A DNA stretch of 39,527 nucleotides from Halobiforma nitratireducens JCM 10879 (lineage in GTDB: Archaea; Halobacteriota; Halobacteria; Halobacteriales; Natrialbaceae): assembly GCF_000337895.1 (NCBI RefSeq), contig NZ_AOMA01000201.1, positions 1 to 39,527 on the forward strand, read 5' to 3'. Below the pieces are notes generated by a model that ran no database searches, had not been told where the DNA came from, and saw only the letters and a list, made by a program, of their open reading frames with translations. Position 1 is the first letter of the stretch; every line of letters begins with the position of its first letter. A program made the translations under genes and the position numbers. Below are positions 4,539 to 9,149 of this stretch, in pieces.

Positions 4539-5882
4539 TCACCCAAGCGCCGCGAACGATATCACGAGCAGTGCCGCAACGACCGCGCCGGACAGCGTCG
4601 CGAGGAAGTTCACACCCTGGTTTCCGAGCAGCGTGCCCTCGATCGTCGCCCCGAGCAAGCTGTCGACGGTCATCCCGACGAACCCCGCCGCGACGATGAT
4701 CGCCGCGCCGGCGGCGTCGACTGCCGGGAACAGCCACAACGAGATACCGGCGACGATCGCCGCACCGGCGAGGCCGGCAACCTCGCCCTGCCAGGTGACG
4801 CCACCGTCGGTTCCCGGCTCGACGGGCTCGAGAGTCGTAATCAGCCGGGTCGTCTCGAAGACGCTGCCGATCTCGCTCGACAGCGTGTCGCTCATGGCGG
4901 TCGCGACGGAGCCGGCGAACGCGAACAGAAACAGGGTCGGGTCGGGGTCGCCGGGAAGCAACGTCGCGGAGCTGGCCGCGTAACCGAGAACAGCAGCGAG
5001 CGCGACGGCGGCGTTCCCGAGAACGTTACCGCTGCCGCGAGCGCCGCCATTGTCCTCGGCGACCCCCAGGTCTCGCTTTCGCTCGTACCGGAACTTCGTC
5101 GCGAGGCCGCCGATCCCGAAGAACGAAATGAGGACAACGAACCAGCCGTAGCCGCCCAGTACGATCGTCAACAGCCCGAGGAGGACGCCGGTGAGCATCC
5201 CGGCTGCCGAGGCGGTCTCGAGCGCGTAAGAGACGTATCCAAGCGCCATGGTGACCGCAAGCGCCGCGACGATCTCGACGGCACCGAGCGCGGGCTCGAG
5301 TTCCGCAAGCAACCACAGCAACAGGCCGACGGAGAGCATGACGATGGGCGCGTCGTACAGGAGTAACACGTCCCGAAGCAGGGCGGCAAGGAGCGCGCCG
5401 CTGGCTGCGAGGAAGACGATCTCCGGAAGGCTCCCTTCGACGGCAGCAACCGGGGCCGGCTCCGTCACCGCGACGGTCGCCGCCTGGCCGACGACGCCAG
5501 CGATCGCCCCCGCGATCGAGAAGGCCGTCACCCGCGCCACGTCGTCGTCGGTCCGCAGACGGGCGGCCTGTTCGCCGAGGTTGCCGTACCCGACGAGGAA
5601 GACTGTCCCGACGAACACCGCGGTCGACATCTCCGTGCCGACCGCGAGCAGTCCGAGGGCGACCCCCGCGAGGACGAACGTCAGCAGGCCGTAGAGTCGG
5701 CCGTCTTCGTAGTCGCCAGGGTAGGCGAGGAGCTCGAAGAGGGGGCCGTCGGTGAGGACGAACGCGCCGACCAGCAGCAGCGCCGCGATCCCACCTGCGA
5801 CCCGCGGTCCGAAGAGCGGAACGGCCAGCGAAAGCGTACAGAGTACCGCGAAGACGCTGGCCCGCCGAACGGGTGCTGTCAC
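4539..5882 (-). CDS. DUF92 family integral membrane protein
   Basis: 447 residues with about 11-13 predicted membrane helices, GTG start at 5880-5882. The C-terminal two thirds carry the DUF92 (COG1836, TMEM19/VTE6-like) hallmarks: K-F-R-Y-E-R-K-R with the E-D-N-G-G-A-R-G-S-G-N-V-L-G-N-A region (about 265-295), S-V-A-T-A-M-S-D-T-L-S-S-E-I-G and T-D-G-G-V-T-W-Q-G. These acidic and Gly-rich loops are the presumed nucleotide/phosphate sites. The plant member VTE6 is a phytyl-phosphate kinase, so a polyprenyl- or isoprenoid-phosphate kinase role is a reasonable inference, supported by the two cis-prenyltransferase homologues next door. A TATA-like element about 27 nt before the GTG (5904-5916, minus strand) suggests a leaderless transcript. 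Family certain, substrate unknown. Confidence 0.9.
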   Translation of the reverse strand: MTAPVRRASVFAVLCTLSLAVPLFGPRVAGGIAALLLVGAFVLTDGPLFELLAYPGDYEDGRLYGLLTFVLAGVALGLLAVGTEMSTAVFVGTVFLVGYGNLGEQAARLRTDDDVARVTAFSIAGAIAGVVGQAATVAVTEPAPVAAVEGSLPEIVFLAASGALLAALLRDVLLLYDAPIVMLSVGLLLWLLAELEPALGAVEIVAALAVTMALGYVSYALETASAAGMLTGVLLGLLTIVLGGYGWFVVLISFFGIGGLATKFRYERKRDLGVAEDNGGARGSGNVLGNAAVALAAVLGYAASSATLLPGDPDPTLFLFAFAGSVATAMSDTLSSEIGSVFETTRLITTLEPVEPGTDGGVTWQGEVAGLAGAAIVAGISLWLFPAVDAAGAAIIVAAGFVGMTVDSLLGATIEGTLLGNQGVNFLATLSGAVVAALLVISFAALG

Positions 5883-5903
5883 GATATCGGACCCTTTCTG
5901 TCG

Positions 5904-5916
5904 GCTTTACTTGAAG
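5904..5916 (-). promoter_or_regulatory. Probable TATA box of the DUF92 gene
   Basis: On the minus strand the sequence reads TTCAAGTAAAGCC, centred about 27 nt before the GTG start at 5882. This matches the spacing of haloarchaeal leaderless promoters. The 171-bp region it lies in is shared with the divergent cis-prenyltransferase-like gene. Confidence 0.5.
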
Positions 5917-6053
5917 GTTCCCGAACTCGAGTCGAACGCGTTTTCGGGTGCTACGGGCGTTTTGCCGGAGTTTTTGTCCCATCGACGAGGGCAGGATTGT
6001 GGGGCTCCCGTTCGCTCGTCGAGAGTCGACGTGTGAACTGGAACGTAACGCGT

Positions 6054-6686
6054 ATGGTACCGGCCGGGATATCCGGCGGTGTGGGTCTGTACGAACGCTA
6101 TCTCGCCCTCCGGATCCGTCGCCACGAGGCCGAGCCACCCGACCACGTCGCGTTGATCATCACCGAACGCGACCTGCTCGAGCAGGGAGCCTACGGGACG
6201 CTCACCGACTTCTTCGAGTGGGCCGTCGACTATGCGTCGCTGGTGACCGTCTACGTGAGCGTACTCGATCGCGAGGCCGTCCCCGCCTTGCGACGGGAAC
6301 TCGAGACGGTCGACGCTCCTCGAGAGGTGGCAGTTCGTGGCCCCGACGACCGGACGCCGGCCGACGCGCCGATCCGGATCGGCATCGGGCTGGGCGGGAA
6401 ACACGAGTTTACGAGCGCGGTGCGGACGCTCGCCGGGAGCGTCGCCGAGGGCGAGCTCGATCCCGAGGCGATCGACGACGAGGCAGTTGAAGACCACCTC
6501 GTCTTTCCGTCGGAGCCGGACCTGGTAATCAAGACGGGCGCGGAGCGACTCTCGGATTTTATGATCTGGCAGTCGGTCTACTCCGAACTGTACTTCACCG
6601 ACATCAACTGGCGTGATTTCCGCAAGCGAGACTTCTTACGGGCGGTCCGCGAGTACTGCAATCGGTCACGGCGGTTCGGTCGATAG
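6054..6686 (+). CDS. Divergent cis-prenyltransferase homologue, NgBR/Nus1-like (no DGN motif)
   Basis: 210 residues. The C-terminal half clearly belongs to the undecaprenyl-diphosphate synthase family: P-D-L-V-I-K-T-G-A-E-R-L-S-D-F-M-I-W, then Y-S-E-L-Y-F, W-R-D-F-R-K-R-D-F-L-R-A, ending N-R-S-R-R-F-G-R. The N-terminus (V-G-L-Y-E-R-Y-L, D-H-V-A-L-I) aligns with UppS, but the catalytic D-G-N is replaced by Thr37-Glu38-Arg39 and the substrate P-loop region is lost. The final residues Arg207-Phe-Gly-Arg210 reproduce the C-terminal RxG motif of NgBR/Nus1, the non-catalytic subunits of heteromeric cis-prenyltransferases. I infer a partner for the UppS at 7643-8581. The start at 6054 suits the alignment; GTG at 6081 is an alternative. 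It is divergent from DUF92 and shares its intergenic region. Confidence 0.85.
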   Translation: MVPAGISGGVGLYERYLALRIRRHEAEPPDHVALIITERDLLEQGAYGTLTDFFEWAVDYASLVTVYVSVLDREAVPALRRELETVDAPREVAVRGPDDRTPADAPIRIGIGLGGKHEFTSAVRTLAGSVAEGELDPEAIDDEAVEDHLVFPSEPDLVIKTGAERLSDFMIWQSVYSELYFTDINWRDFRKRDFLRAVREYCNRSRRFGR

Positions 6687-6731
6687 ACACTACTCACATC
6701 CACTCATCCGTCTTCTTAGGACTGTAAAAGG

Positions 6732-6749
6732 CTCAAAATAAGCTTTGAG
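6732..6749. promoter_or_regulatory. AT-rich inverted repeat CTCAAA-N6-TTTGAG
   Basis: Perfect 6-bp arms (6732-6737 and 6744-6749) around ataagc, in an AT-rich island 45 bp after the stop of the cis-prenyltransferase-like gene and 40 bp before the ATG at 6790. It could be a hairpin at the 3' end of the upstream transcript, or an operator/TATA region for the decayed downstream gene. Function is not decidable from sequence. Confidence 0.35.
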
Positions 6750-6789
6750 TCTTCGGCAATCTAATACCCAACGCGTCGAACCCCGGAAC

Positions 6790-7143
6790 ATGGTAGTGAT
6801 CGCCGCCTTCAAAGACGGGTGGACAGCCCTCCTCGACAATCCGGGCCTGCTCGCGGCCGGGTTCGCCGCCGCCGGCAGCCAGCTCGCGACCGCCATGGAA
6901 CTGATCGGTTCGGTCGGCCTCGCGGCCGCGAGATCGATCGTGTGGTGTGTGGTTCCTCCTGTTCCCGTTCGTGCTGGGTGGGCTCCTCGGTGCAGCCCTC
7001 GAGGCAGTTCGGGGCGCGACGCCGTCAGTCGGCTGGGTCCTCGGCGCGGGGAGACAATACTCCCTCCCCCGTCGCTCGTCGGACCGCCGGCGATCCTCCT
7101 CACGATCGGCGAAACGGTGACCCGGCCGCTCGGCGGCGAATGA
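6790..7143 (+). pseudogene. Decayed membrane-protein gene (DUF7847-like N-terminus, frameshifted)
   Basis: The ATG at 6790 opens a good start (M-V-V-I-A-A-F-K-D-G-W-T-A-L-L-D-N-P) typical of haloarchaeal multi-TM proteins. After about residue 50 the hydrophobic reading jumps frame. From 6947 the +1 frame encodes W-F-L-L-F-P-F-V-L-G-G-L-L-G-A-A-L-E-A-V-R-G, which continues the membrane protein, while the original frame becomes Arg/Pro-rich. Around 7070-7115 the original frame again looks membrane-like (P-A-I-L-L-T-I-G). At least two frameshifts are therefore needed to rebuild one protein, which I read as decay. The alternative is a short, unusual real protein ending at 7143. It sits between the two cis-prenyltransferase genes. 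Confidence 0.55.
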
Positions 7144-7592
7144 GCGGGTCCCGCTCCCCGGACGGCAACGTCCAGACCGACGCTGTCGTCGAAGGGTCCG
7201 TTTCCCGTAGTGGGTCGGACACGGGTCACCCGATGGTCTCGCCTGTCACGGAGCGTCACCACGTCGACGGCTGTGCCTGTCTCGAGTGTCGCGACCTGTC
7301 TGCCGAAACGATCCGGCGGACGCTGCTCGAGTCGCTGCTGTGGTGTCTCCGACTCTTCCGGGCGTACCCGTCGATCCTCCTGCTGGTCGTCCCGCTCGTC
7401 GTCGAACGACGACTGCTCTCGCTTTCCTTGCCCGCGATTGGGTTTCTCGAGGGCACGATCACGATCACGATCACGGCCACGATCTGTCGCTGCGTTCTCG
7501 TTCGGGGATACGTCGACGCGGTCGCCTGGTTGGGCGTTTACGCACACCTCGACGTACGGGGATCGTCGACGTGGGCTCGTCGTTCGACGTAG
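7140..7592 (+). CDS. Hypothetical membrane protein, possibly a remnant
   Basis: 150 residues from an ATG that overlaps the stop of the preceding frame (ATGA at 7140-7143). The first 50 residues are polar. Then C-L-E-C-R-D-L-S-A-E-T-I-R-R-T-L-L-E-S and L-F-R-A-Y-P-S-I-L-L-L-V-V-P-L-V look like the opening of a haloarchaeal multi-helix membrane protein, followed by a Thr/Ile repeat (I-T-I-T-I-T-A-T-I, encoded by repeated acgatc at about 7455-7475). It ends abruptly after one more weak hydrophobic stretch. Together with the frameshifted gene just upstream, this suggests a degraded pair of paralogous membrane proteins. It may still be annotated as a short hypothetical gene. Confidence 0.4.
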   Translation: MSGSRSPDGNVQTDAVVEGSVSRSGSDTGHPMVSPVTERHHVDGCACLECRDLSAETIRRTLLESLLWCLRLFRAYPSILLLVVPLVVERRLLSLSLPAIGFLEGTITITITATICRCVLVRGYVDAVAWLGVYAHLDVRGSSTWARRST

Positions 7593-7642
7593 CTCGACGG
7601 CTTTCGATAGACACGGTCGTCGCCATAACCCTTGCTTCCCGT

Positions 7643-8581
7643 TCAGTCCGCGAACGGCTCGCTGTCGACGTCTTCGCCGAGCGTCAGTTCGTCCTCGCTC
7701 GGTCGCTCACCCGTCGGCAGCGAGTCGCGGAACCGGTCGACGACCGATCGGGCCTCCGGTAGTTCCGTATCGCCGAGCGCGCCGAGCAGCGCCATCGCCC
7801 GACGTGCTCGCGTGCGTCGCCACGACTCCTCGCGGTGCTCGTACGTCCGGATACCCCGGAGGAAGTCGGCTTTCGAGAACTCCGGCCAGTAGGGCGTACA
7901 GAAAAAGACCGCAGCCTCGTTGCCGTTGGCGTGCCAGGGGAGGAAGTTCGAGGTCCGCTCGTCGCCACCGGTACGAATGATCAGATCGACGTCCCGGACC
8001 GGACGGTCGTACAGCCGCCGTTCGATCGTCCCGATGTCGATCTCGTCGGGCTCGAGTGCCCCGTCGTCGACCTCGGCTGCGACCCCGCGGGCGGCCTCGA
8101 GCAGCCGCGATCGACCGCCGTAGGCCAAGGCGATGTTGAGGACGAACGCATCGTAGTCGCTGGTCCGTCGCTCGGCGTAGTCGACGGCCTCTTGGACGCG
8201 CTCGGGAAGCAGCTCGATCTCGCCGATCGCACGGATGCCGACCTCGTTTTCGTGGACGCGGTCGGCGTCGGCGAACTCCCGGAGCTTCTCACAGAGGAGG
8301 TCGAACAATTCCTCGTTTTCCTCGTCGGGCCGTTCGAAGTTCTCAGTGGAGAACGCATACAGCGTCAGTTCTTCGACGCCGACGTCCTGACACCACTCGA
8401 GAACGCGCTCGGTCGTCTTCGCGCCCTCGCGGTGGCCCCGCGGAGCGTCGTCGCCCTTGCGGCGTGCGTACCGACGGTTGCCGTCCTGAATTACCGCGAC
8501 GTGTGTCGGTGCGCCGGAAATCTCTCGGGAGAGGACACGCTCGTACACCGCATCGACGCGACGGCGGAACCACCGCTTCAT
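7643..8581 (-). CDS. uppS: Undecaprenyl-diphosphate synthase family cis-prenyltransferase, catalytic subunit
   Basis: 312 residues. It extends a prenyl diphosphate with cis isoprene units to make the polyprenyl (dolichol-type) carrier lipid for N-glycosylation and related surface glycans. Visible motifs: H-V-A-V-I-Q-D-G-N-R-R-Y-A with catalytic Asp33, G-H-R-E-G-A, T-L-Y-A-F-S-T-E-N-F-E-R-P, D-L-I-I-R-T-G-G-D-E-R-T-S-N-F-L-P-W, and F-F-C-T-P-Y-W-P-E-F. After the fold come about 50 extra residues, ending acidic (S-E-P-F-A-D). The usual C-terminal RxG of homodimeric enzymes, as in the R-R-F-G-G of bacterial UppS, is not evident. That gap is filled by the divergent homologue at 6054-6686. The start ATG at 8579-8581 is the family N-terminus. 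Confidence 0.95.
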   Translation of the reverse strand: MKRWFRRRVDAVYERVLSREISGAPTHVAVIQDGNRRYARRKGDDAPRGHREGAKTTERVLEWCQDVGVEELTLYAFSTENFERPDEENEELFDLLCEKLREFADADRVHENEVGIRAIGEIELLPERVQEAVDYAERRTSDYDAFVLNIALAYGGRSRLLEAARGVAAEVDDGALEPDEIDIGTIERRLYDRPVRDVDLIIRTGGDERTSNFLPWHANGNEAAVFFCTPYWPEFSKADFLRGIRTYEHREESWRRTRARRAMALLGALGDTELPEARSVVDRFRDSLPTGERPSEDELTLGEDVDSEPFAD

Positions 8582-8744
8582 CGGCAGAGTCCACGAGACC
8601 GACGATTATGTGTCTTGTGTGTTACTTTCTGCCTGTGAGACTGGCAACCACGACATCGAACTGGGTAAAAACGCCCGCCATACGGCCGGACACTCCGCCG
8701 ACCGAATCGTGACGGCTATGAGTGCGGCCGCCCTCGTTCCGACG

Positions 8745-9149
8745 ATGGCAGACGCGATCGACGACGACCTCTATCAGCGCACCAAGGCACTGCTCGAGCC
8801 CGGCGAGATCGAACTCAACGGGGCGATCGTCCACACGGAGTTCGACGGTAGCGAGGACGTTCAGATGATGCAGGCGACGATCGACATCGGCGACATCATC
8901 GCCGACCACTCCGGCTACGACCCCACTGACTGTTTCGTCTACTCGGGCAACGACGACCCCGACTTTTCCTCGAACCAGCACCAGGGGCTCACGCTCGAGG
9001 ACGAGGAGTTCGTCTGGGAGTGCCAGCAACTGCTCCGCGAGGGGAGTTTCGATGTCGTCATCTACTATCGGGCCAGCGCGGATCACGAGGCTATCCTCGG
9101 GGACGTTCGGGAGCTGGGGTTCGACGTGACCGGCGTCGAAGGGGAGTAA
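8745..9149 (+). CDS. DUF5778-type conserved haloarchaeal protein
   Basis: 134 residues from M-A-D-A-I-D-D-D-L-Y-Q-R-T-K (ATG 8745); an in-frame ATG at 8718 would add nine residues and further extensions look non-coding. It is soluble and acidic with no membrane segment. Characteristic stretches are L-L-E-P-G-E-I-E-L-N-G, D-V-Q-M-M-Q-A-T-I-D-I-G, F-S-S-N-Q-H-Q-G-L-T-L and F-V-W-E-C-Q-Q-L-L-R, which I recognise as the haloarchaeal DUF5778 pattern. No function is known. It lies 94 bp before the haem operon on the same strand, which may be incidental. Confidence 0.85.
   Translation: MADAIDDDLYQRTKALLEPGEIELNGAIVHTEFDGSEDVQMMQATIDIGDIIADHSGYDPTDCFVYSGNDDPDFSSNQHQGLTLEDEEFVWECQQLLREGSFDVVIYYRASADHEAILGDVRELGFDVTGVEGE

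Follow-up and report, generated by a model that had tools for sequence, protein, structure and literature searches.

A probable two-subunit cis-prenyltransferase in Halobiforma nitratireducens and other haloarchaea

The window, a stretch of 39,527 nucleotides from contig NZ_AOMA01000201.1 of Halobiforma nitratireducens JCM 10879, holds two genes of the cis-prenyltransferase family PF01255. One encodes a UppS-type protein (P0002, called U below). The other encodes a smaller protein (P0001, called N) that has Thr-Glu-Arg at the position of the catalytic Asp-Gly-Asn. A preliminary description of this DNA proposed that the two form a heteromeric synthase for a glycan carrier, and the comparative evidence presented here supports that proposal. 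Judged from sequence comparison, N and U are very probably the two subunits of a heteromeric cis-prenyltransferase for a dolichol-type glycan carrier. A physical complex of N and U, an RxG motif supplied in trans, the product and its use are what we infer by analogy with known enzymes.

Two UppS relatives and their motifs

The gene for N lies on the plus strand. The open reading frame given earlier, which runs from an ATG at position 6054 to position 6686 and encodes 210 residues, is confirmed, but translation may start instead at the GTG at 6081, giving a protein of 201 residues. Many relatives can be aligned only from residue 8-10 onward, and conservation begins at about this GTG; the putative non-catalytic, NgBR/Nus1-like subunit is therefore placed at 6081-6686. 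Met or Val occupies the position of the GTG in 77 of 78 Halobacteria orthologues, which is soft evidence because the script chose start codons near there. The first 27 residues contain many charged side chains and, by eye, no long hydrophobic stretch of the kind expected for a membrane anchor helix.

Residues T37-E38-R39 (codons 6162-6170) align with positions 26-28 of E. coli UppS, where the catalytic D-G-N is found. The C terminus reads RRFGR, with R207-F208-G209 (codons 6672-6680) aligned to E. coli UppS 242-244. Both motifs had been read correctly in the preliminary description. Its statement that N aligns with UppS at both ends holds directly for the C-terminal end, to which the Pfam match is confined (PF01255, 90.9 bits, residues 107-209, the second half of the family), and only indirectly for the N-terminal half. 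When compared alone with PDB sequences, the N-terminal half gave no significant match. Its homology follows from the Pfam matches of two relatives elsewhere in the phylum (G198 and G222), which begin at position 21-22, from a profile match to NUS1 and from the predicted fold. Prenyltransferase models are the sole Pfam and NCBIfam matches of N, those from NCBIfam being below their cut-offs. The N match of another genome, G220, falls just under the Pfam cut-off (26.4 bits).

The possibility that N is a pseudogene was considered and rejected: the reading frame is open and ends in R-F/Y-G in all 80 named loci. A pattern search found the TERDLL-type motif in 78 of them. Genomes of genus g22, for example L224, L230, L242 and L269, have a divergent N, weakly similar to P0001 (best E about 1e-48 in several), in which TERDLL and RRFG are kept.

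U is encoded on the minus strand (8581-7643), is 312 residues long and matches PF01255 over nearly all of the domain with 225.3 bits. It is the predicted catalytic, DHDDS/Rer2-like subunit. The D33-G34-N35 motif noted earlier is present (codons 8477-8485, minus strand). The C-terminal extension, residues 254-312 (7646-7822, minus strand), is predicted to be helical and occupies the place where RxG would be. No comparable RxG was found in P0002, in agreement with the preliminary description. The extension had also been called a long acidic tail, which is true of its last 40 residues (13 D/E against 4 K/R) but not of its start, the basic stretch WRRTRARRA. Among 92 Halobacteria sequences, four residues here are highly conserved, namely S253 (in 90), W254 (88), R258 (87) and R261 (91). 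The tails of several U proteins outside Halobacteria are short, with 17-26 residues after WPxF. A protein with a DUF5778 domain and no assigned function adjoins U at 8610-9149 and has a match in 68 of the 80 named loci.

Apart from N and U, no PF01255 match was found in the window's genome, which is in 205 contigs and 85% complete. Neither protein combines DGN and RxG in one chain, a trait of homodimeric UppS.

The division of motifs between the two proteins persists across relatives. Among 78 distinct Halobacteria sequences of N, the position of DGN is occupied by T in 72, E in 78 and R in 77, and R207 and G209 are invariant (78/78). The D, G and N of U are invariant in 92 of 92 distinct Halobacteria orthologues; U was found in 105 loci, of which four with fewer than 280 residues were dropped before the orthologue and distinct-sequence counts. 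With the named Halobacteria and other families of the phylum added (open reading frames scoring above 40 bits were kept in that sample), DGN is found within the first 60 residues in none of 187 distinct N sequences, and the C-terminal motif is RxG in 185 and KxG in two. DGN is present in all 188 distinct U sequences, a set from which two paralogues of a third type (L221 and L255) had been removed.

The same division is seen in an alignment of 95 rows with E. coli UppS as the ruler, whose columns for DGN, RxG and S71-N74-R77 we take to mark the active site. DGN stands at the catalytic columns in none of the 47 N rows, and RxG stands in the same register in none of the 45 U rows. Asp occurs at column 26 in six N rows, never followed by Gly-Asn. 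S71, N74 and R77 are kept in all 45 U rows. A cruder search for R-x-G after WPxF in the 188 U sequences left 180 with no match, seven with one and one lacking the anchor; of the seven matches, five are at later positions in the C-terminal helix, and those in L233 and L256 are one residue out of register. In sequence, the two motif signatures are complementary in every class sampled. The earlier impression of complementary active-site halves is thus borne out, and it is not a matter of chance because the counts extend over 187 N and 188 U distinct sequences.

Predicted structures agree with these assignments in outline. The AlphaFold2 model of N (pLDDT 83) begins with a helix at residues 3-14, and its strands 54-60 and 83-86 are separated by a single short helix. 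Confidence drops below a pLDDT of 50 at residues 165-173 (of 201), just where conservation is highest. The model of U (pLDDT 79) has longer helices than N in the region between the strands and two helices after residue 249, at 250-269 and 275-283. The best 50 of the 1087 Foldseek matches of N in the PDB all have cis-prenyltransferase titles; the first is 9a7x_A, and the 50 include several DHDDS chains and no NUS1 chain. A profile of N matches human NUS1 over nearly its whole length with E 3e-5, compared to 3e-29 for E. coli UppS. The fold and motifs of N, as predicted, fit the role of NgBR, and in sequence and model N appears nearer to homodimeric UppS than to NUS1.

For U, the top three PDB matches by E-value are human DHDDS chains (6z1n, 7pax and 6w2l), the best being 6z1n_A with E 2.3e-20 and an rmsd of 10.8. 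The rmsd to the DHDDS chains is 10.4-10.8 over about 300 columns. Homodimeric enzymes from bacteria and plants rank just below, with an rmsd mostly of 2.2-2.7 over 223-236 columns and a higher TM by target length. Because the rmsd is so poor, the top rank of DHDDS reflects the length of the alignment more than a close fit of the extensions. The extensions of U and DHDDS are not superposed, and the ranking is therefore weak support for a DHDDS-like U.

Distribution and gene order

N has a match in all 194 Halobacteria genomes, the window's included, at a threshold of E<=1e-12. The two weakest best matches have E-values of 4.3e-37 (G021, the genome of locus L208) and 8.5e-37 (G184). At least two members of the PF01255 family are present in 193 of the 194. 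The sole exception, G072, is a draft in 120 contigs that has the divergent form only. In the phylum as a whole, 287 of 294 genomes match the N profile, a count of profile matches of which a few are perhaps through U only. For nine of the 287 the best E-value is weaker than 1e-20, and the match may come from U alone; in three of them a much reduced form of N, described below, was identified. The seven genomes with no match to the N profile are five of family f17 and two incomplete ones, G256 (76% complete) and G392 (74%).

All PF01255 matches were collected for 45 chosen genomes of the phylum. Full and N-type members, at least one of each, occur together in 38 of these, which is 38 of the 40 that have any family member. 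Two drafts, G072 and G343, have the N type only, five genomes, all of family f17, have neither, and U in the absence of N was seen in none of the 45. The preliminary description had named the divergent gene without a matching UppS as evidence against the pair; looked for in the 194 Halobacteria, this condition did not refute it, and the exceptions found are the drafts G072 and G343. In a quick tree search of 92 rows, from which the three reduced forms were left out and NUS1 sequences were absent, the N sequences form one clade (SH-aLRT 99) and U stands apart (SH-aLRT 81). The best 80 loci from a scan of genome contigs are all Halobacteria by title.

In the window N and U are convergent, with 956 bases between them. 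Both genes are in the matches listed for 116 of the 194 Halobacteria genomes (U was listed in at least 149 and N in at least 150). The two lie within 10 kb of each other in 95 of the 116, and all 95 pairs are tail-to-tail; 13 pairs are further apart and eight are on different contigs. The phylum sample contains 13 pairs within 8 kb, again all convergent. An operon that includes both genes was therefore rejected. The distance between the stop codons ranges from -4 to 3770 bases in the 73 of 80 named loci that have a U of at least 200 bits, and from -186 to 4934 in 13 others, so that in several loci the stop codons overlap or nearly touch.

The interval between the convergent 3' ends (6687-7642 in the window) varies in length and in content of open reading frames. 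A conserved gene between N and U was rejected, since the 12 longest interval reading frames in relatives differ among themselves, their identities being judged by eye only. None of the eight longest matched the interval of the window. Thus the linkage of N and U appears to be kept without co-transcription, and the interval looks like a tolerated insertion site. In the window it contains a broken-looking fragment of a membrane protein with a weak DUF7847 match (22.5 bits, below the cut-off of 28.7).

The neighbor of N on the side away from U is a gene for a DUF92 (PF01940) membrane protein (4539-5882, minus strand, Pfam 199 bits), in head-to-head orientation. The order DUF92(-) N(+) is found in 75 of the 80 named Halobacteria loci (L123-L202), a count in which a position filter limited N to 78 loci. 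The divergent upstream region that the two genes share is 5883-6080 in the window; in relatives, counted as the distance between matches, it measures 83-294 bases in the majority of the 75 loci, with a maximum of 1563. The head-to-head arrangement occurs in 15 of the 40 phylum genomes that have N, in several of which U is elsewhere. We take COG1836 and VTE6 to be members of DUF92. By analogy within the family, the DUF92 neighbor is a candidate polyprenyl-phosphate kinase of the carrier pathway. Plant VTE6 is a phytyl-phosphate kinase and is tied to COG1836 in a passage of PMC9782597.

Proposed mechanism and its alternatives

In the proposed mechanism U would be the catalytic subunit, with an Asp-Gly-Asn phosphate-binding loop, the FSxEN..RP motif, full-length substrate-tunnel helices and a helical extension where homodimeric enzymes carry RxG. 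N would be its catalytically dead sister, in which D-G-N and a large part of the region of the tunnel helices have been lost and the second half of the fold is kept, as is an invariant RRFG or RRYG at the C terminus. The analogy with NgBR/DHDDS and homodimeric UppS suggests that N would join U through the dimer interface usual in the family and place its RxG over the active site of U for the binding of isopentenyl diphosphate, so that each heterodimer would have a single working site. The pair would make a long polyprenyl diphosphate, which would become a dolichol-type carrier for N-glycosylation. Haloarchaeal polyprenyl carriers are C50-60 in length.

It could be that U alone is a working homodimer that uses some other C-terminal residue, and that N is a regulatory or assembly pseudo-enzyme outside the active site. 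The highly conserved residues of the U extension (S253, W254, R258 and R261) might replace RxG, and the two genes are not co-transcribed. However, the C-terminal RRFG and the KTGAERLSDF...ELYFTD block are among the most conserved parts of N, and no chosen genome has U without N. The reduced forms of N also argue against a separate U. They were found in three genomes, two of family f19 (L236 and L247) and one of f25 (L264), and have 144-167 residues as called. They have lost most of the N-terminal half and consist of little more than the C-terminal half with RRFG. Such a shape would be expected of an N whose remaining role was to make up the dimer and provide RxG. An active U homodimer with N outside the active site is thus improbable. 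In L264 the N and U genes, which lie on opposite strands, share about 186 bases at their 3' ends.

Equally improbable is a heteromer of N and U whose product is something other than the glycosylation carrier, for example a membrane-regulating polyprenol. The linked gene is DUF92 and not a known glycosylation gene. Two genomes have the pair and no match to the oligosaccharyltransferase STT3 (G367 and G388, the latter 73% complete), and one, G234, has STT3 and no pair. Against this, the window's genome (85% complete) has STT3 and yielded no PF01255 set other than N and U, and STT3 was found in 38 of the 40 genomes with a family member (33/35 and 5/5) versus one of the five with none. In addition, a passage of PMC8131916 judges it likely that the Methanosarcina mazei pair MM_0618/MM_1083 accounts for the glycosyl carrier.

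The five genomes that have no family member are all of those sampled from family f17 (G200, G209, G218, G227 and G234; 75-91% complete). DUF92 is kept in all five, and STT3 is missing in four. The STT3 gene of the fifth, G234, is on one of about 220 contigs in an assembly with 5% contamination. Fisher's test of the joint loss gives p = 0.0005, a value that ignores the fact that one family represents one evolutionary event; the co-loss concerns a single lineage and is to be counted once. It fits a role of the N/U product as a glycosylation carrier. The f17 archaea may lack polyprenol-based N-glycosylation altogether.

It is hardly credible that N has prenyltransferase activity of its own through a modified catalytic loop, T-E-R-D-L-L. 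In favor of it, TERDLL is strongly conserved in Halobacteria, and of the 47 N rows 23 have R at the position of E. coli R200 and 19 have S at that of S202. Against it, the loop varies outside Halobacteria (column 26 of these rows is T in 18, S in 12 and D in six), the R77 column of the FSxEN..RP segment is a gap in 31 rows, P0001 among them, and the model of N has a single short helix there.

Comparison with known systems

If N and U form the proposed heteromer, haloarchaea, which are well-studied models of N-glycosylation, would make the dolichol carrier by means of an enzyme that has two subunits, as the human one does, and a gene that matches prenyltransferase models only would encode a non-catalytic subunit. 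They would offer a genetically easy system for asking why a dolichol enzyme needs a dead partner, a question that bears on human NgBR/DHDDS disease. DUF92 would be indicated as a linked player in archaeal polyprenol metabolism.

No report of a haloarchaeal heteromeric cis-prenyltransferase was found among the matches listed in the open-licence literature, which leaves its absence from print unproven. A review of Haloferax annotation does not mention undecaprenyl, uppS, dolichol, DUF92 or polyprenyl, and names prenyltransferase twice, both times in its reference list. Within the reach of these searches, what is new is how widely the pair is distributed, its constant gene order, its loss together with STT3 and the partners of 144-167 residues.

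An archaeal heteromer as such has already been published, as the preliminary description stated for a methanogen. It is the M. mazei cis-prenyltransferase MM_0618/MM_1083, with C45-50 products (a passage of PMC8131916, citing Emi et al. 2019). Like it, N and U are two archaeal paralogs, and the full and N-type members that occur together in 38 of the 45 chosen genomes extend this type of enzyme, by these samples, to Halobacteria and most families of the phylum. We infer that N and U are orthologous to the M. mazei pair, and haloarchaea are only a short step away from Methanosarcina. Family f12, which we guess to be Methanosarcina and its kin, has both types in the five genomes examined; unlike in Halobacteria, clustering of N, U and DUF92 was seen in none of the five. 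Another M. mazei protein, MM_0014 (7caq), is a short archaeal cis-prenyltransferase that forms homodimers, as stated in PMC8131916. The extra short copies L221 and L255 belong to the same Pfam family and resemble it by eye. Unlike N, they have DGN, and they end in LGG.

The homodimeric E. coli IspU has the same fold and belongs to the same family, and the C-terminal half of N is closest to it in sequence. IspU carries DGN and RxG in one chain, whereas in N and U they are split over two.

A split of the same kind is known from eukaryotes. In NgBR/DHDDS and in Nus1 with Rer2 or Srt1, one partner lacks catalytic residues and contributes a C-terminal RxG that is involved in IPP binding, according to a passage of PMC7839719. 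A tentative and rather doubtful extension of the present reading is that the division into a catalytic subunit and an RxG donor was an archaeal invention older than the window's phylum, that eukaryotes inherited NgBR/DHDDS from such a heteromer, and that in some archaeal lineages the donor shrank almost to a mere active-site lid of 144-167 residues that acts in trans. NgBR has an N-terminal membrane helix (in a passage of PMC12102762), which N lacks; the similarity of N to NUS1 is remote (E 3e-5), and its C-terminal half is far more UppS-like. Nevertheless, as in human NgBR/DHDDS (6z1n, 6w2l) and yeast Nus1/Rer2, U keeps DGN, and N, non-catalytic by its motif, has the RxG.
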